From a virus, in IMG/VR virus record IMGVR_UViG_3300025646_000117, positions 1 through 39,627 of that record: 39,627 bases of DNA. One strand, written 5' to 3'. How positions within the stretch are numbered: position 1 is the first letter of the stretch; each line of letters opens with the position of its first letter. The notes beneath the pieces are model-generated. The model did no database searches, was not told the origin of the DNA, and worked only from the letters and a program-made list of their open reading frames with translations. Below are positions 4,137 through 24,046 of this stretch, in pieces. Position numbers and translations under genes: made by a program.

Positions 4137-4628
4137 ATGAATCCTAAGGTAGTAGAAAGACACAGATATAATAAAGACCAAATAATTCAAACTAGAAGAT
4201 TCATATTCACTCCATATTCTTATAGTGAAAAGAATATGAGTCTAGTTGTAGGATTAATTCGTAGGAATCTTACTCCAGACCTTTTAAAGGGAAGAAAAAG
4301 GTTAATGTATCCAGAAGATACTAAAACCAATCGTTGTTATGGACATTGCTATCATTCAACTCAAGCACTTTATTATTTGATGGACACTGATAAATTAGTT
4401 CCTATGAGTGCTGAAGATTATCGTGGAGAAAAACATTGGTGGTTACAGGATGGTGAGAAGATTTATGATGTAACTGCTGAGCAGTATTATTGCGTTGGCA
4501 AACTTCCACCATACCAAGATGGTAAAAAAAGTTCTTGGTATGGTTGGAAAGGAAGACCTCAACAGATTTCACTAGATTTGATGGTTAGGGTTCTTGGTAA
4601 AGATAAGGTTAAAGATTTAACAATCTAG
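4137..4628 (+). CDS. Hypothetical protein with Cys/His motifs (CYGHCYHST, HWW)
   Basis: 163 aa, not confidently recognised. Visible motifs are CYGHCYHSTQALYYLM, then HWWLQDGEKIYDVTAEQY and a terminal basic region. The order Cys, helix, His-Trp-Trp, Asp (KIYDVTAEQ) resembles the layout of small papain/transglutaminase-like folds, but this is inference from pattern only. It stands alone between a palindrome upstream and the promoter hairpin at 4641-4685. Confidence 0.7.
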   Translation: MNPKVVERHRYNKDQIIQTRRFIFTPYSYSEKNMSLVVGLIRRNLTPDLLKGRKRLMYPEDTKTNRCYGHCYHSTQALYYLMDTDKLVPMSAEDYRGEKHWWLQDGEKIYDVTAEQYYCVGKLPPYQDGKKSSWYGWKGRPQQISLDLMVRVLGKDKVKDLTI

Positions 4629-4640
4629 GCCAACTCCATA

Positions 4641-4685
4641 ACTGTCACAAGCCCCCTTGCGGTTCCCCCGTAAGGGGGTTATTAT
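4641..4685 (+). promoter_or_regulatory. Box + hairpin + promoter module driving the helicase gene
   Basis: ACTGTCACA (4641-4649) is followed after 7 nt by TTGCGG (4657-4662), 17 nt, then TATTAT (4680-4685). An 11-bp stem (4652-4662 with 4668-4678, one G.U pair, 5-nt loop) contains the -35 hexamer. The expected transcript start (about 4692) leaves a leader of only a few nucleotides before ATG 4699. Confidence 0.65.
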
Positions 4686-4698: not shown

Positions 4699-5934
4699 AT
4701 GAGGTCTGTGATTCAACTCCGTCCCCACCAACAAAAAGCACTGGATGCCCTCGCCAAGTATAGCAAGGGTATCTGTGTGTTTCCCACCGGCGGTGGTAAA
4801 ACCAATGTGGGTATCTTCGATGCTATTCGCGTTTTTCAGTCTAAGACTCCTCAGACTGTCGTAGTTGTTGCTCCTCGCATTCTGCTTGCTGAGCAACTTT
4901 CTTCTGAGTATCTTGAGTTCATCACCAATGCTGCTGTGATGCACGTTCATAGTGGTGAAACTCATCACTACTCCAGCACCAAGCCAGACACCATCTACAA
5001 CTGGTTCCAGAACACTGCTGGGCACAAACTCATCTTCACCACCTACAACTCCCTACAGCGTCTTGTGGATGCCGATGTGGTGGTCGATACCATCTATTTC
5101 GATGAGGCACATAACAGCATTCAGCGTCACTTCTTCCCTGCTGTAGAGCACTTCAGTCAGGAAGCATCCCGCTGCTATTTCTTCACCGCTACTCCTAAGT
5201 ATTCGGTGACTATCGGCAAACCTGGGATGAACGACACTGATGTGTATGGTCAAATCATCGCTAAGGTTCCTGCACCTGAACTGGTGAATGGTGGTTACAT
5301 CATTCCCCCTAAGGTGATTGCGAAGCAACTGCAGATGGTGCAGAAAGGTGATGATATTGCTCAGCGTGACCGCGACAATCTTCTGGAAGTTCTGGAAGAG
5401 AATCCCGTCAATAAGATTCTGATTTGTGCGAAGGCAACCAAGCACATCATCGGTCTTCTGTCTGAAACTGATTTCGCTGAGGTTGTTGCTGAGCAGGGTT
5501 ACTCTGTGATGCACATCACTGCGAAGCACGGTGGTTTCATCGACGGGGAGAAGGTCAACCGTGAGGTGTTTTTCGACACTCTGAACGCTTGGGGTCGTGA
5601 CCCTCAGAAGAAGTTTATTGTTCTTCACCACAGCATTCTTGCTGAAGGCATCAACATTTCTGCTCTTGAGGCAGTTGTGTTTATGCGGGATATGGACATT
5701 GTGGGTATCGGTCAGACTGTTGGCCGTACTCTGCGTCTGCATCCCGATGATGCTGCTGGTATTCGTAACGGCAGCATTGTTCCTGGTCAACTGGAGCAAT
5801 ACACCAAATCTTTCGGTCTGGTGATTGTTCCTGTGTTTTCCAAGGCAACTGCCTCTGCTGCGAAGAAAGTCCAGAATGTTGTGGACATTATCTTTGAGCA
5901 GGGGGACGTTGCGGTGAGCACCATCCGCCGCTGA
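4699..5934 (+). CDS. uvsW: UvsW-like superfamily 2 DNA/RNA helicase
   Basis: 411 aa from ATG 4699. SF2 motifs are in order: Q-motif-like RPHQQKAL (8-15), Walker A FPTGGGKT (28-35), motif Ia VVVAPRILLAEQL, DEAH box (135-138), TAT motif III (about 163) and motif VI GQTVGRTLRL (about 338). In T4, UvsW unwinds branched DNA and R-loops and drives the switch from origin- to recombination-dependent replication; that role here is inference. ATG 4684 and TTG 4657 are in frame but lie inside the promoter at 4641-4685, so 4699 is preferred. The gene is clearly GC-richer and uses more C-ending codons than its AT-rich neighbours. The symbol is by similarity; other phage SF2 helicases are possible. Confidence 0.8.
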   Translation: MRSVIQLRPHQQKALDALAKYSKGICVFPTGGGKTNVGIFDAIRVFQSKTPQTVVVVAPRILLAEQLSSEYLEFITNAAVMHVHSGETHHYSSTKPDTIYNWFQNTAGHKLIFTTYNSLQRLVDADVVVDTIYFDEAHNSIQRHFFPAVEHFSQEASRCYFFTATPKYSVTIGKPGMNDTDVYGQIIAKVPAPELVNGGYIIPPKVIAKQLQMVQKGDDIAQRDRDNLLEVLEENPVNKILICAKATKHIIGLLSETDFAEVVAEQGYSVMHITAKHGGFIDGEKVNREVFFDTLNAWGRDPQKKFIVLHHSILAEGINISALEAVVFMRDMDIVGIGQTVGRTLRLHPDDAAGIRNGSIVPGQLEQYTKSFGLVIVPVFSKATASAAKKVQNVVDIIFEQGDVAVSTIRR

Positions 5935-5950
5935 GGCGGGGTGCATCTCA

Positions 5951-6115
5951 ATGAGAACTCAGATGGCCACTAGAGCAAAAACGGGATTTTCTGCGAATTC
6001 TACGCAGAAGGTCCTGTTGCCCATTTCCCGCAATAAAAACGCGGCAGAATCGGTTTTTATCGCTTTGACCGATGCAATTATCAAGATTGGTATTTTCTTG
6101 ATAGTCCTGTGTTGA
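5951..6115 (+). CDS. Small hypothetical protein with C-terminal hydrophobic helix
   Basis: 54 aa. The N-terminus is basic and Thr/Ser rich; the end (AIIKIGIFLIVLC) could be a single membrane-anchoring segment. It lies 16 nt after the helicase gene and shares its higher GC. No convincing ribosome site and no recognised family; a longer reverse-strand frame over the same DNA is judged a shadow. Confidence 0.4.
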   Translation: MRTQMATRAKTGFSANSTQKVLLPISRNKNAAESVFIALTDAIIKIGIFLIVLC

Positions 6116-6127
6116 GACGGTCTAAAA

Positions 6128-6171
6128 ACTGTCACACACCACTTGACACCTTCACCCTTTTCTCCTAAACT
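6128..6171 (+). promoter_or_regulatory. Promoter with upstream ACTGTCACA box
   Basis: ACTGTCACA (6128-6136), 6 nt, perfect TTGACA (6143-6148), 17 nt, TAAACT (6166-6171). This is the only box-type promoter here without an obvious hairpin around the -35. It starts the small-gene train beginning at 6196. Confidence 0.65.
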
Positions 6172-6195
6172 ACTACAGTAAACACAAAAAAGATT

Positions 6196-6348
6196 ATGTC
6201 TTCTCCCACCTGGACTGTTACCATCGGCATTAGTGGTGCAACTTATGAAGTTCAGATTCCTGGAACTTCCTATAGGCAAGTAGAGCAGATTGCTAAGCAA
6301 CAATATCCTGGTTGCCGTGTTTGGAGTTGCAAACCAAACCGTCTATGA
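6196..6348 (+). CDS. Small hypothetical protein
   Basis: 50 aa, first gene after the promoter at 6128-6171. It is a compact sequence with SGATYEVQIPG, SYRQVEQIAKQQYPGCRVWS and two Cys. No known family recognised. Its stop overlaps the next start by 4 nt (ATGA), indicating translational coupling. Confidence 0.65.
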   Translation: MSSPTWTVTIGISGATYEVQIPGTSYRQVEQIAKQQYPGCRVWSCKPNRL

Positions 6349-6575
6349 GTATTCCAAATTCAACAATCTTGGACCCAGTTTCTTATGAACCTGGGTTCAT
6401 TTCTAAATGTGGAGAATGGGTCGTTGTTCCCTATGGAAGTCGCTTTATGCTAATCCACAAAGGTCAACAAGTTCAAATCGCAAACTCTATTAAAAGTGCT
6501 AAGAGTCACATTGAAAGGCATCTAAAAGCACAAAAAAAGAATAACAGTTCTGCTACTCTTGAAGAACATCTATGA
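6345..6575 (+). CDS. Small hypothetical protein
   Basis: 76 aa starting at the ATGA overlap at 6345, which is preferred over an in-frame upstream ATG at 6312 inside the previous gene. It has a central GEWVVVPYGSRFMLIHKGQQV beta-like segment and a Lys-rich C-terminal helix. Unrecognised. Followed by another 4-nt overlap. Confidence 0.65.
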   Translation: MSIPNSTILDPVSYEPGFISKCGEWVVVPYGSRFMLIHKGQQVQIANSIKSAKSHIERHLKAQKKNNSSATLEEHL

Positions 6576-6772
6576 ATCGTTTTATTCCATTAATTTTAGT
6601 TTTCTTTACTACACCTGCCTTTGCAGAATCTATGCTTATTCAGATTAATCCGAATAGAATGTGTGCTGCTATTGTAGGTATTCCCTATGCTTCGGATAAT
6701 TTTTCTGATGAAGAATGGGAAGAATTTAAGGAATGTGTAAATTATTTCTATCAATACAAAGATGTTGAATGA
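6572..6772 (+). CDS. Small secreted (signal-peptide) protein
   Basis: 66 aa. The first 18 residues (MNRFIPLILVFFTTPAFA) form a classic Sec signal peptide with an AxA-type cleavage site before ESML. The mature peptide is about 48 aa, acidic, with two Cys (MCAAIVG, FKECVNYF) that could form a disulfide in the periplasm. Coupled by 4-nt overlaps to both neighbours. Function unknown; an envelope or exclusion role would be speculation. Confidence 0.65.
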   Translation: MNRFIPLILVFFTTPAFAESMLIQINPNRMCAAIVGIPYASDNFSDEEWEEFKECVNYFYQYKDVE

Positions 6773-6981
6773 CTAAAAATTTTACTCAAACGTGCCATAA
6801 CCCATACGACAGGCACACCTACACGATAAATTTAAAAAATGGAAAATCTGTCAACTTTGACGACTTTGAATCTGCAAGAGAATATTGGTGGTCTTATAGA
6901 GAAATTCCCAATTACCTTGATTTTATTGTTGTTAATGATAGAAAAAGTGCTAGGAAATCTGGTGGAAAAGGATTTGCATAA
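6769..6981 (+). CDS. Small hypothetical protein
   Basis: 70 aa, beginning ATGACTAA in the 4-nt overlap. Contains TINLKNGKSVNFDDFESAREYWW and a basic tail (RKSARKSGGKGFA). No family recognised. The stop overlaps an ATAAATAG octamer. Confidence 0.6.
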   Translation: MTKNFTQTCHNPYDRHTYTINLKNGKSVNFDDFESAREYWWSYREIPNYLDFIVVNDRKSARKSGGKGFA

Positions 6982-6988
6982 TAAATAG
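6981..6988 (+). promoter_or_regulatory. Possible late-type promoter octamer (ATAAATAG)
   Basis: ATAAATAG lies 17 nt before ATG 7006 and close to a good Shine-Dalgarno (AAGGAG). It matches the T4 late octamer pattern loosely, and in DNA this AT-rich it may be chance. Confidence 0.25.
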
Positions 6989-7005
6989 CAAAAAGGAGAA
7001 TCTAA

Positions 7006-7242
7006 ATGAATACCTTTCAATCAATATGCCTCATTATATTTGGAGTGATTGCCTATATGATGATTCTTGATAAGAATGTTGGAGAATATCTGACCCTTAT
7101 CTTCAAAATAATGAAGGTCAACCTTGAAAGGTACATTTGGATGATTCGATTTCACCCACGCAATCCAATCACAAATTTGATTAAGAAGTGGGAATATGAG
7201 AAACTTGCAAAGGAACTTGAGAAAGAATTTGGGGAATCTTGA
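7006..7242 (+). CDS. Small membrane protein
   Basis: 78 aa preceded by AAGGAGAA. Residues about 5-20 (QSICLIIFGVIAYMMIL) form one transmembrane helix. The rest is amphipathic and ends in a charged helix (KWEYEKLAKELEKEFGES). Likely inner-membrane anchored; function unknown. Confidence 0.65.
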   Translation: MNTFQSICLIIFGVIAYMMILDKNVGEYLTLIFKIMKVNLERYIWMIRFHPRNPITNLIKKWEYEKLAKELEKEFGES

Positions 7243-7463
7243 AAAAGTATAAAGCAACTGCTTGGAGAATTATTGCTAAGGCTCTTGGTGAAAAATCTGG
7301 AAAGACTGATAGTGAGGCGGATAAAATTGCTTTTATCCGTCTTTTGATTATGATACAATTAATTACAACTAACGGGTTCATTATTGCAAATGCAATAAGG
7401 CATTGGAATGATATTGACTATGGAACTACTCAAACAAAAGTGGAATGTTCAAAAACTAAATAG
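7239..7463 (+). CDS. Small hypothetical protein with TTG start and hydrophobic helix
   Basis: 74 aa from TTG 7239, which overlaps the previous stop by 4 nt; a GGGG run lies upstream. Starts KKYKATAWRIIAKALGEKS, then a hydrophobic stretch (FIRLLIMIQLITTNGFIIANAI) that may span the membrane. Unrecognised. It overlaps the next gene by about 44 nt. Confidence 0.5.
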   Translation: MKKYKATAWRIIAKALGEKSGKTDSEADKIAFIRLLIMIQLITTNGFIIANAIRHWNDIDYGTTQTKVECSKTK

Positions 7464-7605
7464 AGTTCTTATCGCAAGATTGATAGGGGAGTTAGAAGGT
7501 GTATCATATTTACTTGACTGCTTAGACGAAGAAGACTATAATACGGTTAGAGACCTACTCTCTAAATACTACGATTATTATTTTTCTTTGCCTAAAAATG
7601 AATGA
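7420..7605 (+). CDS. Small acidic hypothetical protein
   Basis: 61 aa from ATG 7420; an in-frame ATG at 7408 is also possible. Helical N-terminus (MELLKQKWNVQKLNRVLIA), then an acidic, Tyr-rich end (DCLDEEDYNTVRDLLSKYY). Unrecognised. A 4-nt overlap follows. Confidence 0.55.
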   Translation: MELLKQKWNVQKLNRVLIARLIGELEGVSYLLDCLDEEDYNTVRDLLSKYYDYYFSLPKNE

Positions 7606-7802
7606 ACTACGCACCATATTCGCCTGAATGGCATCGCAAAAGGTATCTTAAAGAAGCATTAGATTCTTATCTTGACGATTATGTCGATAATGAAATAATT
7701 CTAAATGATATTTTAGATATTCTTTATGAAAGGTCTGAATGCTCTTATAATGATTTCAGTCGTACATTGGACCTTGAAAGTCGTATACACGCAAATAAAT
7801 AG
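7602..7802 (+). CDS. Small hypothetical protein
   Basis: 66 aa beginning in the ATGA overlap. HRKRYLKEALDSYLDDYVDNE and an all-helical look; no family recognised. Last gene before a 20-nt gap. Confidence 0.6.
   Translation: MNYAPYSPEWHRKRYLKEALDSYLDDYVDNEIILNDILDILYERSECSYNDFSRTLDLESRIHANK
7795..7802 (+). promoter_or_regulatory. Possible late-type promoter octamer (ATAAATAG)
   Basis: Octamer overlapping the stop of the previous gene and 20 nt before ATG 7823. Same pattern as at 6981; low certainty. Confidence 0.2.
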
Positions 7803-7822
7803 TACCATATCTGGAGACACAA

Positions 7823-8146
7823 ATGCTTTCCACACAATATCGTATAAGAATGCAAAGAATTTGTGAAGCAATTGAGTTGGGGGAACCTGTTCAACTTCAT
7901 GAAATGATATGGGCAGAGAAACTTGCAAAAGCAAATGGACATGCCCGTACTATGCTGAATCAAGCAAGAAGAAAGGCACAAAATCCAGATATGGACCAAG
8001 ATGGTTTGGACGGATTCCTAAATGGCCTTGATTTAGGTGACCCAGACCCAAGCAATCATCGCACAGGATTTAGTAGTGCTGATGAGATTGCCGATTGGTT
8101 TACAAGAGACGATACCGACACTGATGAATGGAGGCGGCGTGACTAA
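7823..8146 (+). CDS. Small hypothetical protein with helical N-terminus and acidic C-terminus
   Basis: 107 aa with GGAG 8 nt upstream. The first 60 residues are predicted helical (QYRIRMQRICEAIELGE, LHEMIWAEKLAKANGHARTMLNQARRKA). The rest is Asp/Gly rich (GLDGFLNGLDLGDPDPSNHRTGF). This type of protein is common in cyanomyoviruses but has no assigned role. Overlaps the glutaredoxin start by 8 nt. Confidence 0.65.
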   Translation: MLSTQYRIRMQRICEAIELGEPVQLHEMIWAEKLAKANGHARTMLNQARRKAQNPDMDQDGLDGFLNGLDLGDPDPSNHRTGFSSADEIADWFTRDDTDTDEWRRRD

Positions 8147-8387
8147 GAAAATTACAGCAGTTCTTTATACTGACGGAAACCAAGAGTGTGAACGAATTCG
8201 TATGCTCTTGAAGAGTCTTGGTGGTGAGTATCTTGAATATGTTTTAGGTGTTGATTTCAGTGATAGACAGTTCCGTATGGAATTTGGCAAAGATGCTGAA
8301 TATCCACAAGTTACAATCAATCATGAACATATTGGAAGTTTGAAGGAAACACTTCATTATTTCAAAGAAACTGGAGTTATTAGTTGA
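8139..8387 (+). CDS. Glutaredoxin-like protein (single-Cys active site)
   Basis: 82 aa from GTG 8139, with GGAGG just upstream and an 8-nt overlap; ATG 8124 is an alternative. Thioredoxin-fold features: beta strand ITAVLYTDG, active-site position NQEC (Cys17, where typical glutaredoxins have CxYC/CxxC), helix ERIRMLLKSLGG, cis-Pro region EYPQV (Pro56) and C-terminal IGSLKETLHYF. Only one cysteine is present, as in monothiol types. Cyanophage glutaredoxins are thought to support ribonucleotide reductase or redox balance; that role here is inference. Confidence 0.75.
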   Translation: MTKKITAVLYTDGNQECERIRMLLKSLGGEYLEYVLGVDFSDRQFRMEFGKDAEYPQVTINHEHIGSLKETLHYFKETGVIS

Positions 8388-8495
8388 ATGGATTGGATTG
8401 AACTTGCATCACACGAACTTTACTTATTTGTAAGTTTTATGTGTGGACTTTTGCTTGGTTATCTTGTTGGTAGAAGGGATGATTCTGAAATGTAA
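8388..8495 (+). CDS. Tiny membrane protein
   Basis: 35 aa, ATG immediately after the glutaredoxin stop. A single hydrophobic helix (LYLFVSFMCGLLLGYLVG) is followed by a charged tail RRDDSEM, a typical single-span mini-protein with the tail in the cytoplasm. Function unknown. Confidence 0.55.
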   Translation: MDWIELASHELYLFVSFMCGLLLGYLVGRRDDSEM

Positions 8496-8499
8496 AATG

Positions 8500-8733
8500 A
8501 TGACCGAAAAAGACAAAATTTTTTATAATGTGTGGTATTGTGCTTATCAACGAGCACACGAATACAAAAATACTCCCAGGGGAAATAGAGAGTGGGAAAC
8601 GGTAAAAATGTGCCTCAAACACGCAAAGTGGTGGAAGTATGAAGAGGACCGCAGGACGGTTCTTAATCCGTCACACGCTGTAGTTGCCACTGACGACAGT
8701 CTGTGGTATCATAGCCTTGTATCTGGATTCTGA
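8500..8733 (+). CDS. Small hypothetical protein
   Basis: 77 aa starting ATGACC (ATG 8497 is also possible). Trp/Tyr/Lys rich (KIFYNVWYCAYQRAHEYK, HAKWWKYEEDRRT). Unrecognised. Its stop shares one base with the next start (TGATG). Confidence 0.6.
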   Translation: MTEKDKIFYNVWYCAYQRAHEYKNTPRGNREWETVKMCLKHAKWWKYEEDRRTVLNPSHAVVATDDSLWYHSLVSGF

Positions 8734-9248
8734 TGATGTATAAAGCAACCGTAAAACTTCAGTTTGATTCCAAGTGGGACTCTACTAATTATAGTAGTGG
8801 TTATGAAGATGGATTACTTCCAGAAGAACATATTGTAATTGAAGTTCCTGCTCAAGACCTAAACACAAAGCAACTCTTCAATCTATTTGAAAAGTTTCTT
8901 TTGTCTATGGGATATATTGAGAAGAATATTTGTGAAAGTGCTCTTTCTCTTGTTTTCAATAATATTAGGTCAGAAGAACTTATGAAAGAACTTTGTAAGG
9001 CATATGACCTCACGATGAATGAGGATATGGGAGACCTTAATGAATGGAAGAATAGTGCTAAAAAGTATGAGGACCTCTATTGGAATCTTCATAGGAAAGT
9101 AAAAGAACAAGAAGCAATCATTTCCCGTCTTCAAAATCCAGACAATCCCCAATACACTGAAGAAGAAATGGATGTGATGTGTATGGAACAAGAACCTGAA
9201 AAAGAGGGTCTAAAGTGGTGGGAGAAACAGGTTGGTGGTAATGGATAA
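8733..9248 (+). CDS. Hypothetical protein with C-terminal coiled coil
   Basis: 171 aa. The first half is mixed alpha/beta (MYKATVKLQFDSKWDS). The second half is helical with heptad-like EKYEDLYWNLHRKVKEQEAIISRL, followed by an acidic end. No enzyme motif seen. Confidence 0.65.
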   Translation: MMYKATVKLQFDSKWDSTNYSSGYEDGLLPEEHIVIEVPAQDLNTKQLFNLFEKFLLSMGYIEKNICESALSLVFNNIRSEELMKELCKAYDLTMNEDMGDLNEWKNSAKKYEDLYWNLHRKVKEQEAIISRLQNPDNPQYTEEEMDVMCMEQEPEKEGLKWWEKQVGGNG

Positions 9249-9372
9249 GAACTCTAAGTATCTTTTATTATCTTTTCTTGGACTTGTGCTTATAGATTTG
9301 ATGGTAATTGTTTTCTTTTTCTATAAAGCACAGGTTAATTTTCCTTTGGTGTTTAAACATATTTTTGAATAA
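9241..9372 (+). CDS. Tiny membrane protein
   Basis: 43 aa overlapping the previous stop by 8 nt. One strongly hydrophobic helix (YLLLSFLGLVLIDLMVIVFF), then KAQVNFPLVFKHIFE. Single-span membrane mini-protein of unknown role. Confidence 0.55.
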   Translation: MDKNSKYLLLSFLGLVLIDLMVIVFFFYKAQVNFPLVFKHIFE

Positions 9373-9376
9373 ATAC
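9369..9376 (+). promoter_or_regulatory. Possible late-type promoter octamer (ATAAATAC)
   Basis: ATAAATAC followed by C is a good match to the cyanophage late -10 pattern, 9 nt before ATG 9386. The leader would be very short. Confidence 0.35.
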
Positions 9377-9385
9377 CTAAAAAAA

Positions 9386-9751
9386 ATGAAATCATACGAT
9401 CAGTTCAAAAAAGAATTGGAAAATTTAGATGAAATTTTTGGGTTATTTGATGCACAAAGTCGCCGTGAGCGTAGAGGTAGAAAACAATTAGAAAGGGAAA
9501 GACTTGATAGGATAACAGGTAAAAAAAGAGACCCTGAAAAAGAAGAGCGTGAAAGAAACCTTGAATATATGAAAAAGAGGGATAAAAGAGAAAAAGATGA
9601 AAAGAAAGATGGATATTCTGTAGAAACAGAACCTCCAATGATGAATGTGCATTATCTTGACAAAAGAAATGAATTACGGAAAACAAAATCAAGATATCCT
9701 CATTCCAAGAAAGTTAGATTTCCTGGAGAGCGTGAAAAAGAAGAAGAGTGA
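9386..9751 (+). CDS. Highly charged Arg/Lys/Glu-rich helical protein
   Basis: 121 aa starting MKSYDQFKKELENLDEIFG; the in-frame ATG at 9308 lies inside the upstream gene. About residues 30-85 are an almost continuous charged helix (RRERRGRKQLERERLDRITG, KKRDPEKEERERNLEYMKK), possibly a coiled coil or nucleic-acid-binding segment. MKSYDQF-type starts occur in late cyanophage proteins, consistent with the octamer upstream. Unrecognised. Confidence 0.65.
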   Translation: MKSYDQFKKELENLDEIFGLFDAQSRRERRGRKQLERERLDRITGKKRDPEKEERERNLEYMKKRDKREKDEKKDGYSVETEPPMMNVHYLDKRNELRKTKSRYPHSKKVRFPGEREKEEE

Positions 9752-9761
9752 CACCTTGAGA

Positions 9762-9805
9762 ACTGGCACACCACCCTTGACGGGTGGTCTTTTTTTGTGT
9801 ATGAT
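9762..9805 (+). promoter_or_regulatory. Fused terminator-promoter: -35 is the terminator loop
   Basis: ACTGGCACA (9762-9770), then a 6-bp stem CCACCC/GGGTGG (9771-9776, 9782-9787) with loop TTGAC, then TCTTTTTTT. The loop plus one stem base is TTGACG (9777-9782), exactly 17 nt before TATGAT (9800-9805). This is an intrinsic terminator for the upstream unit and a sigma-70-type promoter for 9828. A near copy is at 12903-12946. Confidence 0.75.
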
Positions 9806-9827
9806 ACTTAGGTAACCAAAACACAAA

Positions 9828-10001
9828 ATGAATTCCTTAGAGCAGCACCAAGTCAAACAAGTATTTGATATGATTGAATATGAAAAGAGGTGTGCTGACC
9901 TTCATCACGAACGGGTGTATGGTCGCGGTATTCGTGCCTGGGAACCCAAATATAAATCTTGGGGATGGATTAAAAATGGTAAATTTACTTCCGATAACTG
10001 A
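9828..10001 (+). CDS. Small hypothetical protein
   Basis: 57 aa, first gene after the fused element. Helical start (EQHQVKQVFDMIEYEKRCADL), then HHERVYGRGIRAWEPKYKSWGW. Unrecognised. Confidence 0.55.
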   Translation: MNSLEQHQVKQVFDMIEYEKRCADLHHERVYGRGIRAWEPKYKSWGWIKNGKFTSDN

Positions 10002-10009
10002 TAAATCTT

Positions 10010-10303
10010 ATGCCTAGACCTAAAAAATCAGATTCATCGAAACCAGCAAAACCTAAAACAACCAGGGCTAAAGCAAAGACACCTAAATCAGCACCTAAAC
10101 CTAAGGCAACTGCTGAACCAAAACCAAAACCCCTAAAGGTAAAGGAAGATTTTCCGCATATTGGATTTCCATATCGTCTTGAGTATATGGAAGACAAAGA
10201 TAAAAAGATTTGCTTCTTCCAGTGCGAAAATCATATGGAGAAGCATATTACAAGACACAAACTTAATAGAAAAACCTGTAAAATCTCAGTAAAGGAGGAC
10301 TAA
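10010..10303 (+). CDS. Lys/Pro/Ala-rich basic protein with C-terminal folded segment
   Basis: 97 aa. Residues 1-45 are low-complexity histone-H1-like (PKKSDSSKPAKPKTTRAKAK, KPKATAEPKPKP), likely disordered and able to bind nucleic acid. The C-terminal 50 residues (FPHIGFPYRLEYMEDKDKKI, FFQCENHMEKHITRHKL) look folded. No named family; DNA or RNA binding is inference from charge. Confidence 0.65.
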   Translation: MPRPKKSDSSKPAKPKTTRAKAKTPKSAPKPKATAEPKPKPLKVKEDFPHIGFPYRLEYMEDKDKKICFFQCENHMEKHITRHKLNRKTCKISVKED

Positions 10304-10305
10304 TT

Positions 10306-10431
10306 ATGGCAACTCGGACTTATACTCAGAAAGATGGTGCTGTCTGGGAATGGGAAGAAACTGTAGAATCTACTAAAGCACTTGAAACCTATTACAAACT
10401 CGTAAATCAGAATGCAAAGGGAACTAATTGA
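10306..10431 (+). CDS. Tiny hypothetical protein
   Basis: 41 aa with a strong ribosome site (AAGGAGG, 10292-10298). Contains YTQKDGAVWEWEETVESTKA. Its 3' end overlaps the next start by 20 nt. Unrecognised. Confidence 0.55.
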   Translation: MATRTYTQKDGAVWEWEETVESTKALETYYKLVNQNAKGTN

Positions 10432-10621
10432 TGACTGCTTCTATGTCCAACAGCAACGCTGGGGAACTTGGGTTTCCGAAGATTCAATGGGTAAGCAACT
10501 CGTCACTTCATTCACTGAAAACGAATGTATCAAAGCGACCCGTTTTTATCTTAAAGGACGGCAGGAAGGTTTTTCAGAGCCTGAGGTGATTCACGATGGA
10601 ACAGTTGGAGGAAAACTATAA
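10412..10621 (+). CDS. Small hypothetical protein (cyanophage-conserved type)
   Basis: 69 aa. The sequence FYVQQQRWGTWVSEDSMGK followed by ATRFYLKGRQEGF has the look of a conserved small fold. ATG 10412 lies in the previous gene; a competing frame from ATG 10431 gives a less protein-like product and was not chosen. Confidence 0.6.
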   Translation: MQRELIDDCFYVQQQRWGTWVSEDSMGKQLVTSFTENECIKATRFYLKGRQEGFSEPEVIHDGTVGGKL

Positions 10622-10763
10622 GTTTCCTACACTCGACCCAACAACTCCTTGGTACGAATTTTTATTGTATCAAGAGTCTTGTTGGAGTCTTGGTAGGCCT
10701 GTGAGACTTACTAGTTTTATTTGTTATAATGCTTACCTAAAAGAGATTGGAGTTATCAAATGA
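10596..10763 (+). CDS. Small hypothetical protein
   Basis: 55 aa, overlapping the previous gene by 26 nt and the next by 4 nt. Contains DPTTPWYEFLLYQESCWSLG. Unrecognised; inclusion rests on the overlap pattern and absence of other coding here. Confidence 0.5.
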   Translation: MEQLEENYKFPTLDPTTPWYEFLLYQESCWSLGRPVRLTSFICYNAYLKEIGVIK

Positions 10764-10975
10764 GTGACCCTTATTGGTTTCAAAAAAAGTGGGGACTTAG
10801 GGGTGACCCACCGATTGAAACTCTGCTTAAAAGAATTGAAGAACTTGAGGAAAGAGTACTTAAGTTAGAAGATGAAAACATTTCTACCACAAATGAACTG
10901 TATCGTCTGGAAAACTCACTTGATGCACGCATAGATATTCTTGCAGAACATTGTAGGACAGACACAGATGTATGA
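10760..10975 (+). CDS. Small coiled-coil protein
   Basis: 71 aa. The start MSDPYWFQKKWGLRGDPPIE is followed by heptads (LLKRIEELEERVLKLEDEN), so probably a dimeric coiled coil. Partner unknown. Confidence 0.6.
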   Translation: MSDPYWFQKKWGLRGDPPIETLLKRIEELEERVLKLEDENISTTNELYRLENSLDARIDILAEHCRTDTDV

Positions 10976-11144
10976 TGACCTTGACAGTTTTGAAAAAGCA
11001 CTTTCACATTTTGGAACAAGAGTCGATGTTATTTGTGCCCTTGAAATGGGTGGGAAAATTGATGCAGAGACCGCATACCAAAACATTAAAATCGAACTCA
11101 AAGAACTTAAAAAAATCCGAAAGCAATATAAAAAGGAAATGTAG
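10968..11144 (+). CDS. Small hypothetical protein
   Basis: 58 aa from ATG 10968, overlapping the previous gene by 8 nt. Helical with Lys-rich end (IKIELKELKKIRKQYKKEM). Overlaps the zinc-ribbon frame that follows. Confidence 0.55.
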   Translation: MYDDLDSFEKALSHFGTRVDVICALEMGGKIDAETAYQNIKIELKELKKIRKQYKKEM

Positions 11145-11259
11145 TAAATGTGGTGAAGAGAAACCACTGGACAAAGACCACTATCAGGTGGTAAAATACT
11201 TTAAACAAGGATTTAGTTATTACTGCAATGAGTGTAACAAACCAAAACCAAGGGAGTGA
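11062..11259 (+). CDS. Zinc-ribbon mini-protein (CxxC...CxxC), start uncertain
   Basis: The informative part is RKCSKCGEEKPLDKDHY followed by FSYYCNECNKPKPRE: two CxxC knuckles 27 residues apart, as in the zinc ribbon at the front of many HNH-type phage proteins, but without the nuclease. ATG 11062 gives 65 aa with a 22-residue basic extension that is antisense-like in composition. A natural start would be at 11128, where the codon is ATA. A stretch of seven A at 11109-11115 lies just upstream. Confidence 0.45.
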   Translation: MQRPHTKTLKSNSKNLKKSESNIKRKCSKCGEEKPLDKDHYQVVKYFKQGFSYYCNECNKPKPRE

Positions 11260-11416
11260 TTCCTTAAAAATCATACAAAATCCTGATGGTTCTTATACTG
11301 CCGAATGGGATAAAAATGACCCAGACTGGTCTTGGTTAAACAACTTGACTTCTAAGGAAATTCAGATTATTATTCAACAAGCTTGTAAGGAGTATGAAAA
11401 AGACTATGGAACTTGA
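11228..11416 (+). CDS. Small hypothetical protein
   Basis: 62 aa. KIIQNPDGSYTAEWDKNDPD then WSWLNNLTSKEIQIIIQQA: a beta hairpin followed by helices, a pattern seen in cyanophage small proteins. ATG 11228 lies inside the upstream frame. Unrecognised. Confidence 0.6.
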   Translation: MSVTNQNQGSDSLKIIQNPDGSYTAEWDKNDPDWSWLNNLTSKEIQIIIQQACKEYEKDYGT

Positions 11417-11831
11417 TTACCATAAAGTATGGAATGCTATGAATGAACTTGAACAACAGTTCAGCAAATTTTCTGTTGTGAGAGATGTTCTTGAAGTTGC
11501 TAGGGATAAATCTGTTGATTCAGATGTAGAAAACACAATTGATGCTTCTATTGAACTCTTTGACATTTATACTGCTCAATGGGATGAGCAGTTTAAAAAT
11601 GCCTGGGATGCAGTTGTTGTTCCCCTACACATCAAAGAATATTCATCTTCAGAGTCAAGAGAAGAATCCCGTAAAGATTTGGATGTGCTCGATGATGTAA
11701 TTAACCAAGCAGAAGAATTTTATAATAAAGTAAAGGTTGGTCGCATTTCCTATCAAGAAGCAATTGAGAGGGGTTGGGAGATGACTGATGATGGATTCTG
11801 GATGCCCCCACAGGACACTGTAAATGACTAA
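11406..11831 (+). CDS. Acidic helical hypothetical protein
   Basis: 141 aa from ATG 11406 (ATG 11394 adds four residues; AAGGAG at 11387 is too close to 11394). Predominantly helical and acidic, with EESRKDLDVLDDVINQAEEF and the ending WEMTDDGFWMPPQDTVND. No family recognised. 8-nt overlap with the next gene. Confidence 0.65.
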   Translation: MELDYHKVWNAMNELEQQFSKFSVVRDVLEVARDKSVDSDVENTIDASIELFDIYTAQWDEQFKNAWDAVVVPLHIKEYSSSESREESRKDLDVLDDVINQAEEFYNKVKVGRISYQEAIERGWEMTDDGFWMPPQDTVND

Positions 11832-12006
11832 GTTTCAAGTGGCAGGAACTTATGACGGGGAATACTTCTCCGTCATTATTTCTATGAATGATACTCACGC
11901 AATCTCCTTAGATGGACTTTCTAAGGATGATATGCTAGAATTGCAAAGTTGTATTGACTGTATGTTAAGCGAGGAACAAACTGATGGCATTGGGACAACA
12001 AGTTGA
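11824..12006 (+). CDS. Small hypothetical protein
   Basis: 60 aa starting ATGACTAA. KFQVAGTYDGEYFSVIISMN looks like a beta sheet, followed by a helix with two Cys (LQSCIDCMLSEEQ). Unrecognised; overlaps the next start by 23 nt. Confidence 0.6.
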   Translation: MTKFQVAGTYDGEYFSVIISMNDTHAISLDGLSKDDMLELQSCIDCMLSEEQTDGIGTTS

Positions 12007-12217
12007 AGAAAGTCTAAAAGAAGCAGAAGCAAATCTAAGAAACGCATTGGCATTTGCCGCAAGAGGAGAAAGGTCTGTTGTTGTGTCTTGTATTGCTGAC
12101 CTGATTCATAAAATTGATACGGTTATCAGTACTGATGATTTGTTGGATAAACTTGAGAATCGAAAGAATGGTGATTCTGGCACCTGGGGGGACTTTTTCA
12201 TTTCTGATGATGAGTAA
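11984..12217 (+). CDS. Small helical hypothetical protein
   Basis: 77 aa. EESLKEAEANLRNALAFAA and CIADLIHKIDTVISTDDLLD suggest a helical bundle. Last gene before an 83-nt gap. Unrecognised. Confidence 0.6.
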   Translation: MALGQQVEESLKEAEANLRNALAFAARGERSVVVSCIADLIHKIDTVISTDDLLDKLENRKNGDSGTWGDFFISDDE

Positions 12218-12261
12218 TTATTAAGAATCATTACTGAACCATAAAGACAATATTAAAAACG

Positions 12262-12282
12262 GAGCATTATGCTCTATATAAT
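12262..12282 (+). promoter_or_regulatory. Palindrome abutting a TATAAT -10 element
   Basis: GAGCAT-T-ATGCTC (12262-12274) is directly followed by TA and then TATAAT (12277-12282), 18 nt before ATG 12301. No good -35 is seen, so the palindrome may be an operator or hairpin in an otherwise weak promoter. Confidence 0.4.
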
Positions 12283-12300
12283 GTTAGGATTTGCTAACAG

Positions 12301-12474
12301 ATGCAAATGTCTATGAGTCTCACCGAAGAAGAACGCGAAGAAATGCAGGCACTTAAGTCTGCAATAAATGAATACCCAGCTTCAGTCATTCCAGAAAAAC
12401 AAGAGCGATTTACAGAGTTATTTGTGCGTTCTCTACAAGAACTGCACTCAAAAAGTGACTTAAATTCTAAATAA
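12301..12474 (+). CDS. Small hypothetical protein
   Basis: 57 aa. SLTEEEREEMQALKSAINEY then PASVIPEKQERFTELFVRSL: helical and acidic, with the look of a small conserved cyanophage protein. Starts at 12307 or 12313 are possible. It lies directly upstream of cp12. Confidence 0.6.
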   Translation: MQMSMSLTEEEREEMQALKSAINEYPASVIPEKQERFTELFVRSLQELHSKSDLNSK

Positions 12475-12482
12475 TATATCAT

Positions 12483-12707
12483 ATGGATACAAAAATGGAT
12501 AGCATCGACCAACACATCCAAAAAGATATGAGTATCTTGGAGGACCCAACCATTTCTCCACAAGCACGTCGCCACGTTGAGGAAGAACTTGAGTCTCTTG
12601 AAAAATACAAAGAAAATCATCCTGAAGATTTGCACGACCCAACTCCACTTGAACTTTATTGTGACTCCAATCCTAATGCTTTAGAGTGTAGAATTTATGA
12701 AGATTGA
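12483..12707 (+). CDS. cp12: CP12-like Calvin cycle inhibitor
   Basis: 74 aa. The C-terminus LELYCDSNPNALECRIYED (56-74) is the CP12 signature: a Cys pair (Cys60, Cys69) around a Pro, ending in an acidic Tyr motif that enters the GAPDH active site. RRHVEEELESLEKY (29-42) corresponds to the CP12 helical core (plant/cyanobacterial AWDxVEEL). CP12 bridges GAPDH and PRK when oxidised and shuts down carbon fixation. In cyanophages it is thought to divert carbon to the pentose phosphate pathway (established knowledge). The N-terminal Cys pair of plant CP12 is absent. Confidence 0.85.
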   Translation: MDTKMDSIDQHIQKDMSILEDPTISPQARRHVEEELESLEKYKENHPEDLHDPTPLELYCDSNPNALECRIYED

Positions 12708-12715
12708 CTAAATAC
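12708..12715 (+). promoter_or_regulatory. Possible late-type promoter octamer (CTAAATAC)
   Basis: Same octamer as at 2153, overlapping the end of cp12 and also 19 nt before an ATG. Suggests that the next small gene may be expressed late. Confidence 0.4.
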
Positions 12716-12734
12716 ATAAAAAAAACAAAGAACT

Positions 12735-12887
12735 ATGTCAAGATTCACAGATTTATTTCAAGAACCAAAAGCAGTTCCAGCACCAGTAGTTGAAACAAAA
12801 GTAGAACCAGTTGTAGTTGAAGAAGTTAAAGAAACCAAAGTAACATCAATTCTTGAAAGAATCAAAAAGAAAAAGACAACTGACTGA
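12735..12887 (+). CDS. Small Pro/Val/Lys-rich protein
   Basis: 50 aa. Starts MSRFTDLFQEPKAVPAPVVE, then alternating Val/Glu and a basic end (SILERIKKKKTTD). Low complexity; similar in start style to short late proteins. It is terminated by the fused element at 12903. Unrecognised. Confidence 0.55.
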   Translation: MSRFTDLFQEPKAVPAPVVETKVEPVVVEEVKETKVTSILERIKKKKTTD

Positions 12888-12902
12888 TGTGACACCTTAA
12901 GA

Positions 12903-12946
12903 ACTGGCACACCACCCTTGACGGGTGGTGTTTTTTTGTGTATGAT
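12903..12946 (+). promoter_or_regulatory. Fused terminator-promoter: -35 is the terminator loop
   Basis: Near-identical to 9762-9805: ACTGGCACA (12903-12911), CCACCC/GGGTGG stem (12912-12917, 12923-12928), loop giving TTGACG (12918-12923), T tract, then TATGAT (12941-12946) at 17 nt spacing. Ends the cp12 unit and starts the 12979 unit. Confidence 0.75.
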
Positions 12947-12978
12947 ACTTAGGTAATCAATGGTGAGTGACAAATGAC

Positions 12979-13146
12979 ATGAGTTACGATATAAATCCAG
13001 ATGAAGAAAAGTGTAAAAAGATGTTTGAGTTTGTCAAGGGAACAGATGGGGTTGACTTAAATCATCTAGTCTGGGCTCTTGGCAAACTTGAAGAACGCAT
13101 TTTTCATCTTGAAACCGTAATTTTGTCAATGCAAGAAGATGACTAA
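12979..13146 (+). CDS. Small hypothetical protein
   Basis: 55 aa. Preceded by a five-codon reading frame (ATG 12960 to TGA 12977) in the leader that could act as an upstream peptide. The protein is helical (LNHLVWALGKLEERIFHLET). Unrecognised. 8-nt overlap with the next gene. Confidence 0.55.
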   Translation: MSYDINPDEEKCKKMFEFVKGTDGVDLNHLVWALGKLEERIFHLETVILSMQEDD

Positions 13147-13303
13147 AAGGTACATCGCATTTTTTGCTTTCGGTATCGCGTTTATTGTCGGTTGGAACAT
13201 TGCTCTAATCCAACGGGATAAGAAACTGTTCGACCGACACACACCCAAAGAACATTATTGTGCTCAACAGGCACAATGGCACCCTGACTGTAATGTGGAG
13301 TGA
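13139..13303 (+). CDS. Small membrane-anchored protein with two Cys
   Basis: 54 aa starting ATGACTAA. One transmembrane helix (YIAFFAFGIAFIVGWNIALI) right after a basic start, then an extra-cytoplasmic-looking tail with HYCAQQAQWHPDCN. The positive-inside pattern places the Cys pair in the periplasm. Function unknown. Confidence 0.6.
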   Translation: MTKRYIAFFAFGIAFIVGWNIALIQRDKKLFDRHTPKEHYCAQQAQWHPDCNVE

Positions 13304-13307
13304 ATCA

Positions 13308-13583
13308 ATGATTATCCAAGCATCCAAAGTTGAAGTGTCCCACAAAGAGTGGGATTGCTATTCATTCACACCAGATGCTATTATTGCTGATGTGAACACT
13401 GGTATCACTGAGATTCTGATGACTACACATCATCCAGTAACTGCCCAAAAGAGGATTATGGATTTTCTTGAATCATATACTTTTTATGGATTCAGGGATA
13501 GTGAGTGTGAATTTGCAGCAACTGATGCTATCAACGCATACTACAAATCGAACATCAACCGTTGGGCATATTTGCGTAAATGA
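13308..13583 (+). CDS. Small hypothetical protein
   Basis: 91 aa from ATG 13308, four nt after the previous stop. Mixed alpha/beta with SHKEWDCYSFTPDAIIADVN and a C-terminal DAINAYYKSNINRWAYLRK. It resembles conserved small cyanophage proteins but has no known role. 4-nt overlap with the deaminase gene. Confidence 0.6.
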   Translation: MIIQASKVEVSHKEWDCYSFTPDAIIADVNTGITEILMTTHHPVTAQKRIMDFLESYTFYGFRDSECEFAATDAINAYYKSNINRWAYLRK

Positions 13584-13963
13584 TTTCTGACTCCGTTCTT
13601 CAACTTGCAATCAAGACTGCCAAGTCTTCCCCATCCAAAAAGAAAATAGGTGCTATTCTTCTTCGTAAGAATAAGGTCATTGTAACAGCAACTAATCTTG
13701 AAAAGAAAACACATCCTATTCAGGCATTTCTTGCGGAAAAGGTAGGTCTTGATGAAAAGATTTATCTTCACGCAGAAGTTAATGCCCTTATCAAATCTAA
13801 GGAGAAGGCAGATACGATTGTAGTTGCTAGAATCGGTGGTCATGGGCACGATGAGTTGCGAATGAGCAAACCTTGCCCAATCTGTCAAATGGCACTTGAA
13901 ATGAACAATGTGAATAGAGTAATCTATTCCACAAACGAAGGTTTTCTACAACAATGGAGGTAA
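13580..13963 (+). CDS. Cytidine/deoxycytidylate deaminase-like zinc enzyme
   Basis: 127 aa. Carries the zinc-binding signature of the CMP/dCMP deaminase superfamily: HAE (His64, Glu66) followed by PCPIC (Cys99, Cys102), with KKIGAILLRKNKVIVTATN as the core strands. Members hydrolyse the amino group of cytosine nucleotides; a phage dCMP deaminase would supply dUMP for dTTP synthesis. Substrate cannot be read from sequence: it is shorter than T4 Cd and lacks an obvious allosteric extension, so a cytidine or nucleic-acid substrate is possible. Confidence 0.75.
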   Translation: MISDSVLQLAIKTAKSSPSKKKIGAILLRKNKVIVTATNLEKKTHPIQAFLAEKVGLDEKIYLHAEVNALIKSKEKADTIVVARIGGHGHDELRMSKPCPICQMALEMNNVNRVIYSTNEGFLQQWR

Positions 13964-13964
13964 A

Positions 13965-14318
13965 ATGATTTTTCTGGCACAAATCCCTACTCCCCCACCT
14001 ATCAGCATCACCCCAAAGCAACAGGATATTCTGAATAAAATCTACAATCAAGATTTTGAGAAAGCAAATGAAACCAAACGAATCTTTGGTTCTTGTACCT
14101 ATGATTGGTCTGGTTGGAAACTGAGTGAAGATAAGGTTCGGTCTACCATTCGTGTTTGCAATGGTAAAGAGCAACGGATTGCCGTGAGTTGTGATGCACT
14201 GAAGACCAATGAATATGTAAGTGATAAATGGATGGGTTGGATTTCTCCCGTATCCAGTTCAGCAGAGAAGGGTGAAGACCTAATGGTAGCAACACTTTGT
14301 TCTAATATCGCAAAATAA
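13965..14318 (+). CDS. Hypothetical protein, possibly exported
   Basis: 117 aa. Starts MIFLAQIPTPPPISITPKQQ, which is short for a signal peptide. Contains GSCTYDWSGWK, STIRVCNG, AVSCDALK and TLCSNIAK, so four Cys that could pair. It lies directly upstream of the RlpA-like gene. Unrecognised. Confidence 0.6.
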   Translation: MIFLAQIPTPPPISITPKQQDILNKIYNQDFEKANETKRIFGSCTYDWSGWKLSEDKVRSTIRVCNGKEQRIAVSCDALKTNEYVSDKWMGWISPVSSSAEKGEDLMVATLCSNIAK

Positions 14319-14319
14319 C

Positions 14320-14348
14320 TTGACAGTACACTTCATCTGTGATATTCT
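14320..14348 (+). promoter_or_regulatory. Promoter TTGACA-17-TATTCT
   Basis: TTGACA (14320-14325), 17-nt spacer, TATTCT (14343-14348). No ACTGGCACA box and no hairpin. It drives the RlpA-like gene, which has a strong ribosome site. Confidence 0.6.
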
Positions 14349-14376
14349 GTAATTTCAAATCGAGGAGGTTATCAAT

Positions 14377-14691
14377 TTGATTTCGACACTTATTGCTGGA
14401 CTTACTTGTGGAATCTCTACTTTCTACGGAATGGGTGATGGATTCCACGGGCAAATCACCGCAAACGGTGAAAGAATGGATGCATATCGTTGGACGGCCG
14501 CACATCCATATCTTCCTATGGGAACTAAACTACGAGTGACTAATCAACGAAATGGTAAGCAAGTTATTGTCCGCATCAATGATAGGGGTCCTTACTCTCA
14601 TGCTGATTTGGACCTTTCCTATTCTGCATTTGCTCATATTGAATCCACATCTAAGGGCAATGCTACTGTTTGCTGGAGAGTAGTCGGTTAA
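14377..14691 (+). CDS. RlpA-like double-psi beta-barrel protein
   Basis: 104 aa from TTG 14377, chosen because GAGGAGG sits 8 nt upstream. Matches the RlpA-like DPBB domain: FHGQITANGERMD, TAAHPYLPMGTKLRVTN, VIVRINDRGPY, DLDLSYSAF. His43 and Asp69 occupy the positions of the catalytic residues of RlpA lytic transglycosylases, which cleave peptidoglycan strands lacking stem peptides (family knowledge). The short N-terminus (ISTLIAGLTCGISTF) may act as a signal. A role in host wall remodelling or lysis is inference. Confidence 0.7.
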   Translation: MISTLIAGLTCGISTFYGMGDGFHGQITANGERMDAYRWTAAHPYLPMGTKLRVTNQRNGKQVIVRINDRGPYSHADLDLSYSAFAHIESTSKGNATVCWRVVG

Positions 14692-14694
14692 GAA

Positions 14695-14739
14695 ACCGTC
14701 ACAAGGGCACTTCACAGATGCCCTTTGATGCCTTATAAT
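14695..14739 (+). promoter_or_regulatory. Box + hairpin + promoter module
   Basis: ACCGTCACA (14695-14703), hairpin GGGCA/TGCCC with loop containing TTCACA (14711-14716), 17 nt, TATAAT (14734-14739). Drives the unit from 14817 through a longer structured leader. Confidence 0.65.
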
Positions 14740-14749
14740 ATACTCACAA

Positions 14750-14793
14750 GGAACCAGGGAACGCCTGTGCGATAAAGAGGCACAAAAGGTTCC
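14750..14793 (+). ncRNA. Structured 5' leader (nested stems)
   Basis: GGAACC (14750-14755) pairs with GGTTCC (14788-14793), enclosing TGTGC (14766-14770) with GCACA (14780-14784). It sits in the roughly 70-nt leader between the promoter at 14695 and ATG 14817, longer than any other leader in the window. A cis-regulatory or processed RNA is inferred. Confidence 0.35.
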
Positions 14794-14816
14794 CACCATA
14801 CACACAGACACCTCTT

Positions 14817-15014
14817 ATGACTATTGTTCATATGACCGAAGGACTTGATAATGAAGACAAACTTCCTCTTCCTACTCACGAAGAACTTTGTGAAATGATG
14901 ATTGAACATTGGGAGAAAGAAATTCGACTGGTTCAGGCAGGATTGGGATTTAGAATTGGTTATCATAAACAAATTGTAAATCAATATAAACAAATTTTAA
15001 AGAAACTGAAATGA
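14817..15014 (+). CDS. Small hypothetical protein
   Basis: 65 aa (ATG 14832 also possible). Contains LPTHEELCEMMIEHWEKEIR, mostly helical with a basic C-terminus. Unrecognised; 4-nt overlap follows. Confidence 0.55.
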   Translation: MTIVHMTEGLDNEDKLPLPTHEELCEMMIEHWEKEIRLVQAGLGFRIGYHKQIVNQYKQILKKLK

Positions 15015-15334
15015 CTGCCTTCACTTACAAAGGATACGGACGCATCTACACCAATCCAGAGCACATTCAAGTTGTAGAGGATATTATAAAATTACTTGAT
15101 GAGTTTGAGTGGAGTTATTATCCAGGAGGACTTGTAGCATCTTGGGACAAGTATCCAAATGTTGAGTATGTTGGTAAGTTTGAACTGAATGAAGAAAAGT
15201 TCAAAGAGTTTTGTAAAAAAGCAGACATTCCTGTTTTTGTCTTTAATGCTTATGATAATGATTATCCTCGTGGTTATGTCAAAACCTTGAATGTAGAAGA
15301 AATCAAAACACTTTCTTATGGAGAACTCCAATGA
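15011..15334 (+). CDS. Small hypothetical protein
   Basis: 107 aa, alpha/beta (NPEHIQVVEDIIKLLDEFEW, EYVGKFELNEEKFKEFCKKA, YPRGYVKTLNVEEIKTL). Looks like a compact folded domain; no family recognised. Coupled by 4-nt overlaps on both sides. Confidence 0.65.
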   Translation: MTAFTYKGYGRIYTNPEHIQVVEDIIKLLDEFEWSYYPGGLVASWDKYPNVEYVGKFELNEEKFKEFCKKADIPVFVFNAYDNDYPRGYVKTLNVEEIKTLSYGELQ

Positions 15335-15546
15335 TTACCGACGAACAAATCCTTGAATATGCTGAAAAGTATCTTGATGTATTTCCAGATGATGTTACAG
15401 CAACCAAAAAACAACTAATTGAGTTTGCCCTCAAAATCCACGAAATGGGTTATAATGAAGGATACGATGAAGGTTGGGAAAGTCGTGCCCAAAGTGAACA
15501 CATGAACTCATCTTATCCAACTGGACTTGTAAAAGACCCACAATGA
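15331..15546 (+). CDS. Small helical hypothetical protein
   Basis: 71 aa. TKKQLIEFALKIHEMGYNEG then YDEGWESRAQSEHMNSSYP. The YNEGYDEG pattern is common in small phage proteins of unknown role. Confidence 0.6.
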   Translation: MITDEQILEYAEKYLDVFPDDVTATKKQLIEFALKIHEMGYNEGYDEGWESRAQSEHMNSSYPTGLVKDPQ

Positions 15547-15707
15547 CTAAATGTTCTTTTGACCCAACAGCAGACATTTATAAGGATGCTCCTATTGGTA
15601 TGTTTCACTGCCCTGAATGTGGTGAAATGGTAGTTGCTGGGCTTCCTCATCCTGATTGGGATGCTTTATTTGATGAATTGGAGGACACTTCTCAAACTGA
15701 CCCCTGA
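15543..15707 (+). CDS. Zinc-ribbon-like mini-protein
   Basis: 54 aa starting ATGACTAA. FHCPECGEMVVAGLPHPDW gives one CxxC plus His, possibly a zinc-binding knuckle with Cys4 or a His as further ligand. Ends directly at the promoter hairpin. Function unknown. Confidence 0.55.
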   Translation: MTKCSFDPTADIYKDAPIGMFHCPECGEMVVAGLPHPDWDALFDELEDTSQTDP

Positions 15708-15739
15708 CCCCTCCACAGGGGCATCAGATGCCCTATAAT
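15708..15739 (+). promoter_or_regulatory. Double-hairpin promoter
   Basis: CCCC-TCCACA-GGGG (15708-15721), with the loop at the -35 position 16 nt before TATAAT (15734-15739). A second perfect hairpin GGGCATC-A-GATGCCC (15719-15733) abuts the -10. The ACTGGCACA box is not recognisable here. Confidence 0.55.
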
Positions 15740-19151: not shown

Positions 19152-19154
19152 CGA

Positions 19155-24043: not shown

Positions 24044-24046
24044 ACA

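Follow-up and report, generated by a model that had tools for sequence, protein, structure and literature searches.

For phages of the T4 type, cassettes termed PeSLs were reportedly dealt with by Arbiol et al. in 2010 (doi 10.1093/gbe/evq006) and by Comeau et al. in 2014 (doi 10.1093/gbe/evu129), and a novel element controlling early genes and conserved among T4-like cyanophages, Syn9 included, is said to have been found by Doron et al. in 2016 (ISME J, doi 10.1038/ismej.2015.210); we know of no link made in the latter work to terminators or gene shuffling. PeSLs are promoter-early stem-loop cassettes of T4-type phages, as they are cited in PMC4503421, where those of cyanophage S-PM2 were considered too few to be of importance. 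Sigma-70 early promoters of T4-like phages share a TATAAT-type −10 and a host-like −35 (PMC1524935; PMC2984593), and how early and middle genes are transcribed in cyanomyoviruses was in 2010 still regarded as unclear (PMC2984593). Here, we analysed a 39.6-kb virus fragment (IMG/VR record IMGVR_UViG_3300025646_000117; this whole stretch is referred to below as the window), which PHROG matches to tail fibres, helicase and DNA methyltransferase, together with protein matches to S-PM2, S-SKS1, S-SRM01 and similar phages, place within a T4-like Synechococcus cyanomyovirus. No close nucleotide match was present in the phage collection searched. Positions 34642–37517 on the minus strand, opposite to the rest of the window, hold a row of some four apparently paralogous genes, each encoding about 210 aa, two of which were tested and match phrog_24074 and phrog_8510; two tandem-repeat arrays (37533–37637 and 37716–37896) are built of 21-nt (ATGTATGAGTATTAT...) and 32-nt (AATCTAGTCGAGACTCACACATATCTTATAAG) units with a nearly palindromic core AGTC(G/T)AGACT. 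About 20 sites of the window are probably copies of one compact gene-joint cassette of about 60–70 bp, in which, as far as nucleotide sequence allows judging, the stop codon of the upstream gene would be followed by a dyad, an optional terminator, a −10 and then the beginning of another gene.

An earlier note on this DNA had pointed to a terminator hairpin whose loop serves as the −35 of the next promoter, and inspection of 9762–9805 and 12903–12946 found the sequence exactly as described: a stem CCACCC/GGGTGG, a loop TTGAC and a T tract are combined with TTGACG-17-TATGAT, the two 72-nt copies being 96% identical in repeat analysis. The recurrence of this layout proposed for 14695, 15708, 24047, 24948, 27991 and 29438 stands as regards the hairpin (−9.7 to −13.5 kcal/mol) and TATAAT positioned 16–17 nt past the loop hexamer, but only in part as regards the T tract. 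A G+C-rich hairpin followed by a true T tract, as in intrinsic terminators, is present at four of the eight cited sites (9762, 12903, 24047 and 24948), while 14695 and 27991 carry TTT only; the tract is absent from 15708 and 29438, which, together with 31768, lack this combination. Generic scans of the window returned 18 terminator-like signals (shuffles: 10.9 ± 3.5) and 66 promoter-like ones (shuffles: 61.5 ± 7.2), weak enrichments lying so near the shuffle level that the earlier claim could not rest on scans alone. Repeat analysis and fuzzy search revealed sequence shared by the window copies on both sides of the hairpin, namely GGACACTTGARGAACTGGCACA on the 5′ side and TATAATACTCTCATA on the 3′ side. 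With at most one mismatch, AACTGGCACA occurs 21 times in the window against 2.6 expected, mostly at a fixed 28–30 nt ahead of the −10, and a profile composed of the block, the spacing and the −10 and trained without the window gave 21 matches there (20 on the plus strand) against 0 in three shuffles. Judged by profile sites and the conserved block, the eight sites are thus part of about 18–20 copies, recognized by their variable middle and not by their conserved ends; the note had missed the dyad block together with its fixed geometry, and also the putative role as a gene-exchange joint.

The copy at 9747–9805 (plus strand, like all those listed here and below) comprises a dyad block (9747–9770), a hairpin (9770–9788) with the loop TTGAC, a T tract, the −35 TTGACG (9777–9782) and the −10 TATGAT (9800–9805), with the upstream ORF stopping at 9751 and the next ATG at 9828; its near-identical counterpart at 12888–12946 has the dyad at 12888–12911, then a hairpin, a T tract, TTGACG at 12918–12923 and TATGAT at 12941–12946. 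The other cited sites fall into elements 14680–14739 (dyad of the AACCGTCACA variant, hairpin, TTCACA-17-TATAAT, TTT only past the stem), 15681–15739 (degenerate dyad, hairpin, TCCACA-16-TATAAT, no T tract), 24032–24091 (dyad 24032–24055, hairpin AGGGGCACTCCACAGGTGCCCTT with a T tract, −10 TATAAT 24086–24091), 24933–24991 (dyad 24933–24956, hairpin with a TTGCAG loop region and a T tract, −10 TATAAT 24986–24991), 27976–28035 (dyad 27976–27999, hairpin with a TCCACA loop, −10 TATAAT 28030–28035; 87% identity over 70 nt with S-PM2 9856–9924) and 29423–29482 (dyad 29423–29446, hairpin with a TTGTGG loop, no T tract, −10 TATAAT 29477–29482). The earlier note did not contain 4626–4685, where the dyad is followed by a −23 kcal/mol hairpin abutting the −10 (TATTAT, 4680–4685) without a T tract. 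Further copies are located at 6113–6171 (no hairpin; dyad, TTGACA in the spacer, weak −10 TAAACT), 19140–19198 (dyad, weak hairpin, −10 TATAAT 19193–19198), 24616–24675 (dyad, weak hairpin, −10 TATAAT 24670–24675), 25577–25636 (dyad, hairpin, −10 TATAAT 25631–25636; 95% identity with copy 24616 over 84 nt), 37887–37944 (dyad with AAGTGGCACA, TTGACA in the spacer, −10 TATACT 37939–37944), 38866–38925 (dyad, weak fold, −10 TATATT 38920–38925) and 39546–39605 (dyad TGTGACAGTT-GCCT-AAGTGGCACA, hairpin, −10 TACATT 39600–39605).

In IMG/VR, many cyanophage contigs were found to carry AACTGGCACA followed by TATAAT when a gap of 18–34 nt was allowed, and spacings of 28, 29 and 30 nt accounted for 25, 123 and 67 pairs, respectively (215 of 275), with 0–5 at each other spacing; since the −10 was included in the search pattern its perfection is partly selected, while the spacing peak is not. 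The common order is an imperfect dyad TGTGnCAsTT-N4-AACTGGCACA (consensus TGTG[AC]CA[CG]TT-N4-AA[CG]TG[GT]CACA), 28–30 nt of almost no fixed sequence, TATAAT and, about 20–30 nt further on, the next ATG. In the window copies the upstream gene usually stops within the dyad or at its edge, with TGTGA supplying a TGA; stop codons cluster likewise across the collected element set. The next ATG lies 13–32 nt past the −10 in nearly all window copies. The idea that one compact element ends one transcript and starts the next is plausible in view of these stop and start codons and of the hairpins accompanying codirectional upstream genes described below. The outer half-site letters are similar to those of CRP-type operators, but the spacing is not, TGTGA-N14-TCACA standing in place of TGTGA-N6-TCACA; an Rfam search gave no match. 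Being an inverted repeat located where the upstream gene ends, the dyad could be taken for a structure of the upstream RNA (a second hairpin, processing site or antiterminator) and not for a DNA operator, which we consider highly improbable: changes at positions 5 and 8 of the half-sites are not compensated (A/G in 41 of 110, C/C in 41 of 110), the distance to the −10 is fixed within 1 nt, and the dyad is retained where the upstream gene is divergent. Both halves use the same alternatives without mutual compensation, which favours a DNA site over an RNA stem and led us to reject a paired RNA hairpin. We regard the dyad, centred near −53, as a putative DNA site, probably bound by a dimeric regulator.

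Similarity to TTGACA at a 16–18-nt spacing averages 3.25 of 6; control hexamers score lower (about 2 when reversed or complemented, 2.86 when reverse-complemented). A score of at least 5 of 6 is reached in 15% of sites vs 3% or less in controls, so the −35 is real but weak, and elements that have a hairpin (3.25) do not differ in it from those that lack one (3.27). Taking folds at or below −7 kcal/mol as strong, about half of the collected elements have a strong hairpin, accompanied by a T tract in 82 of 158 cases. Two sub-classes can be distinguished, one with a T-rich tail of 6–12 nt and the loop near −31, another (45 of 158) with the stem abutting the −10 without a T tract; given the latter and the half of elements without a strong hairpin, not all of them are classical terminators. 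Strong hairpins abutting the −10 and devoid of a U tract (31768–31826, 4626–4685 and orthologous elements in L317–L391) change position between relatives and do not correspond to classical terminators. In the de-duplicated set, hairpins are found in 54% of elements with a codirectional upstream ORF (103/191) and in 16% with a divergent one (6/37; p = 2e-5), the larger set giving 55% and 19% (p = 6e-6), where orientation is approximate because the classes rest on simple ORF rules. Such an excess after codirectional genes is predicted by a terminator and not by a promoter component or a cruciform, so that the hairpin would end the transcript of the preceding gene.

One could nevertheless suppose that a terminator hairpin with a −35 loop is the essential design, the hairpin, a cruciform or the nascent RNA gating access to the −35. 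The geometry is true at the two best sites, and among 156 hairpin elements 99 have a loop that shares 3 nt or more with the −35 window; but 38 of the 156 loops miss it entirely, the −35 is of equal quality whether or not a hairpin is present, a strong hairpin is missing from about half of the promoters, hairpins are rare after divergent genes, and within orthologous spacers the hairpin shifts while the dyad and the −10 stay put. This design appears improbable to us as the essence of the element. What the earlier note said of the loop as the next −35 survives as the geometry of its two best sites, and the switch it suggested, acting on the −35 through a cruciform or nascent RNA, is not supported, since hairpins are rare where there is no transcript to end; masking of the −35 was rejected in view of the hairpin-independent quality of this hexamer. 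We favour a promoter that would be defined by the dyad, the spacing and the −10, the −35 being weak as in activator-assisted promoters. An optional intrinsic terminator would fill the 28–30-nt spacer, with the weak −35 in or near its loop: packed into a fixed spacer of about 29 nt, a terminator fits with its loop near −31, on the −35.

Outside the window, the profile matches 24 sites in S-PM2, 30 in S-SRM01, 27 in P-SSM2, 11 in Syn9 and 30 in the 139 kb of the S-CRM01 genome that were examined, and the divergent cyanomyovirus S-TIM5 has 8 elements with a variant block. KVP40 and RB49 gave 0 matches (0–2 in shuffles), and no element was found in the T7-like cyanophages P-SSP7 and Syn5, the SAR11 T4-like phage HTVC008M or the Microcystis phage Ma-LMM01. 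Numbering 11–30 per cyanomyovirus genome, elements cluster in ORFan regions, e.g., at 42–69 kb of P-SSM2 and 48–89 kb of S-SRM01; dyad promoters of Syn9 occupy an ORFan cluster at 48.6–53.0 kb and occur also elsewhere.

Elements coincide with borders of gene blocks as well. Element 30792–30851, located directly after the DNA methyltransferase gene 30129–30803, bounds on its left a block of genes that relatives lack, and element 31768–31826, with a strong hairpin abutting the −10 and no T tract, lies before gene 31850–32290 and makes the right edge of this block. Homologues of gene 31850 were gathered by protein alone; an element immediately precedes 55 of the 77 for which sufficient sequence was available, and in 34 of the 55 the −10 and the start are separated by an identical 21 nt. 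Families of upstream proteins adjoining these homologues number 17. The methyltransferase and gene 31850 are joined in three ways among relatives: two elements flank a small gene of roughly 44 codons (L233, L234, L239, L240, L251, L252), a single element is present (L235, L241, L243, L247–L249), or, as in the window, two elements flank three other genes. The element of L235 is a hybrid: of the two elements of L234, the first is resembled by its left part and the second by its right. These joining patterns are as expected from recombination between elements; with their common sequence and intergenic position, the cassettes would allow whole genes to be added, removed or replaced in this way. 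A plainer reading would see in them ordinary promoters and terminators of a compact genome, with shuffling at borders reflecting nothing but tolerance of intergenic breaks. The laboratory deletion in S-PM2 (5,799–15,339; PMC4503421) is in line with it: both ends lie outside elements, which rules out an element-mediated origin of this deletion and means that not every rearrangement in the region uses elements. Hybrid elements with precise gene differences in several relatives, near-identical window copies (95–96% over 72–84 nt) and DNA identity between the window and S-PM2 that stops at element edges speak against break tolerance, and make this reading unlikely.

As for the protein that may recognize the dyad, two phage families are to be considered as leads only, pointed to by their presence and absence. 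The 66-aa protein of phrog_1920 is known from 423 phage records, all of cyanophages (the S-PM2 copy is at about 93.9 kb of NC_006820), looks helix-turn-helix-like by eye and has no Pfam match; the 79-aa protein of phrog_385 is listed as a transcriptional regulator. Both are encoded by S-PM2 and all four other element-bearing Kyanoviridae tested and are absent from element-free phages, although neither was found in S-TIM5, which bears elements. Among bacterial genomes, 23 stretches were found to contain the symmetric dyad, the neighbouring genes having no common function and the record titles naming no marine Synechococcus or Prochlorococcus; as weak negative evidence, this survey disfavours a host regulator using the dyad as its operator. 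In one Pyrinomonadaceae (acidobacterial) genome, the symmetric form TGTGACASTT-N4-AASTGTCACA is encountered at least six times (L207, L212, L214, L218, L224, L225). We tentatively propose, giving it slightly less than an even chance, that a so far undescribed regulator of cyanomyoviruses, encoded by the phage or carried in the virion, has the dyad as its operator and would activate dozens of early promoters from about −53, and that the 70-bp unit of stop codon, operator, terminator and promoter serves as an accessory-gene shuffling joint of Synechococcus and Prochlorococcus T4-like phages. The element provides a signature by which putative early transcription units can be searched for in phages that are abundant in the sea and in fresh water and whose accessory genes are mostly unknown, and suggests how these genes pass in and out between phages, a point left unclear for S-PM2 by PMC4503421. 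It also makes the early regulator of cyanomyoviruses directly testable, a single dyad being usable as bait.

Like PeSLs, the cyanophage element has a putative early promoter, joined in about half of the copies to a stem-loop that may act as a terminator; like them, it recurs among small, non-essential genes in hyperplastic regions, where genes would be shuffled from copy to copy. Its near-perfect −10, weak but real −35 and nearby ATG are those of a predicted sigma-70-like early promoter, many copies are found in hyperplastic ORFan regions, and gene presence or absence bounded by elements, together with hybrid elements, matches PeSL-type shuffling, for which recombination would be the cause. 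The S-PM2 stem-loop 11369–11391 named in PMC4503421 is situated inside one of the 24 dyad promoters found there. KVP40 (NC_005083) has a repeated AAAGGGTTGAC(nnnn)GTCAGCCCTTT-4-TATTAT at about a dozen loci with the −35 inside the terminator hairpin, so this arrangement is already known and not new. Hairpins of KVP40, e.g., at 85853, 100188 and 121371, have TTGAC or TTGC in the 5′ arm and TATTAT or TATCAT 2–7 nt later. The element differs from PeSLs in the fixed-distance dyad, the optional and mobile hairpin and the stop codon inside the dyad, and its weak −35 is near the loop, whereas in KVP40 TTGAC is in the stem arm. It has no common sequence with RB49 and KVP40 PeSLs, the profile giving 0 matches in both and the KVP40 composites being of another sequence, so that it would resemble a PeSL in the way it works and not in sequence. 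To the sigma-70 early promoters of T4-like phages (PMC1524935; PMC2984593) it adds the dyad at about −53, the weak −35 and the embedded terminator. The general kind is thus known from T4-like phages, and new here are the fixed-distance dyad, its density in cyanophages and its probable use as a joint. The dyad itself is likely the early element of Doron et al.
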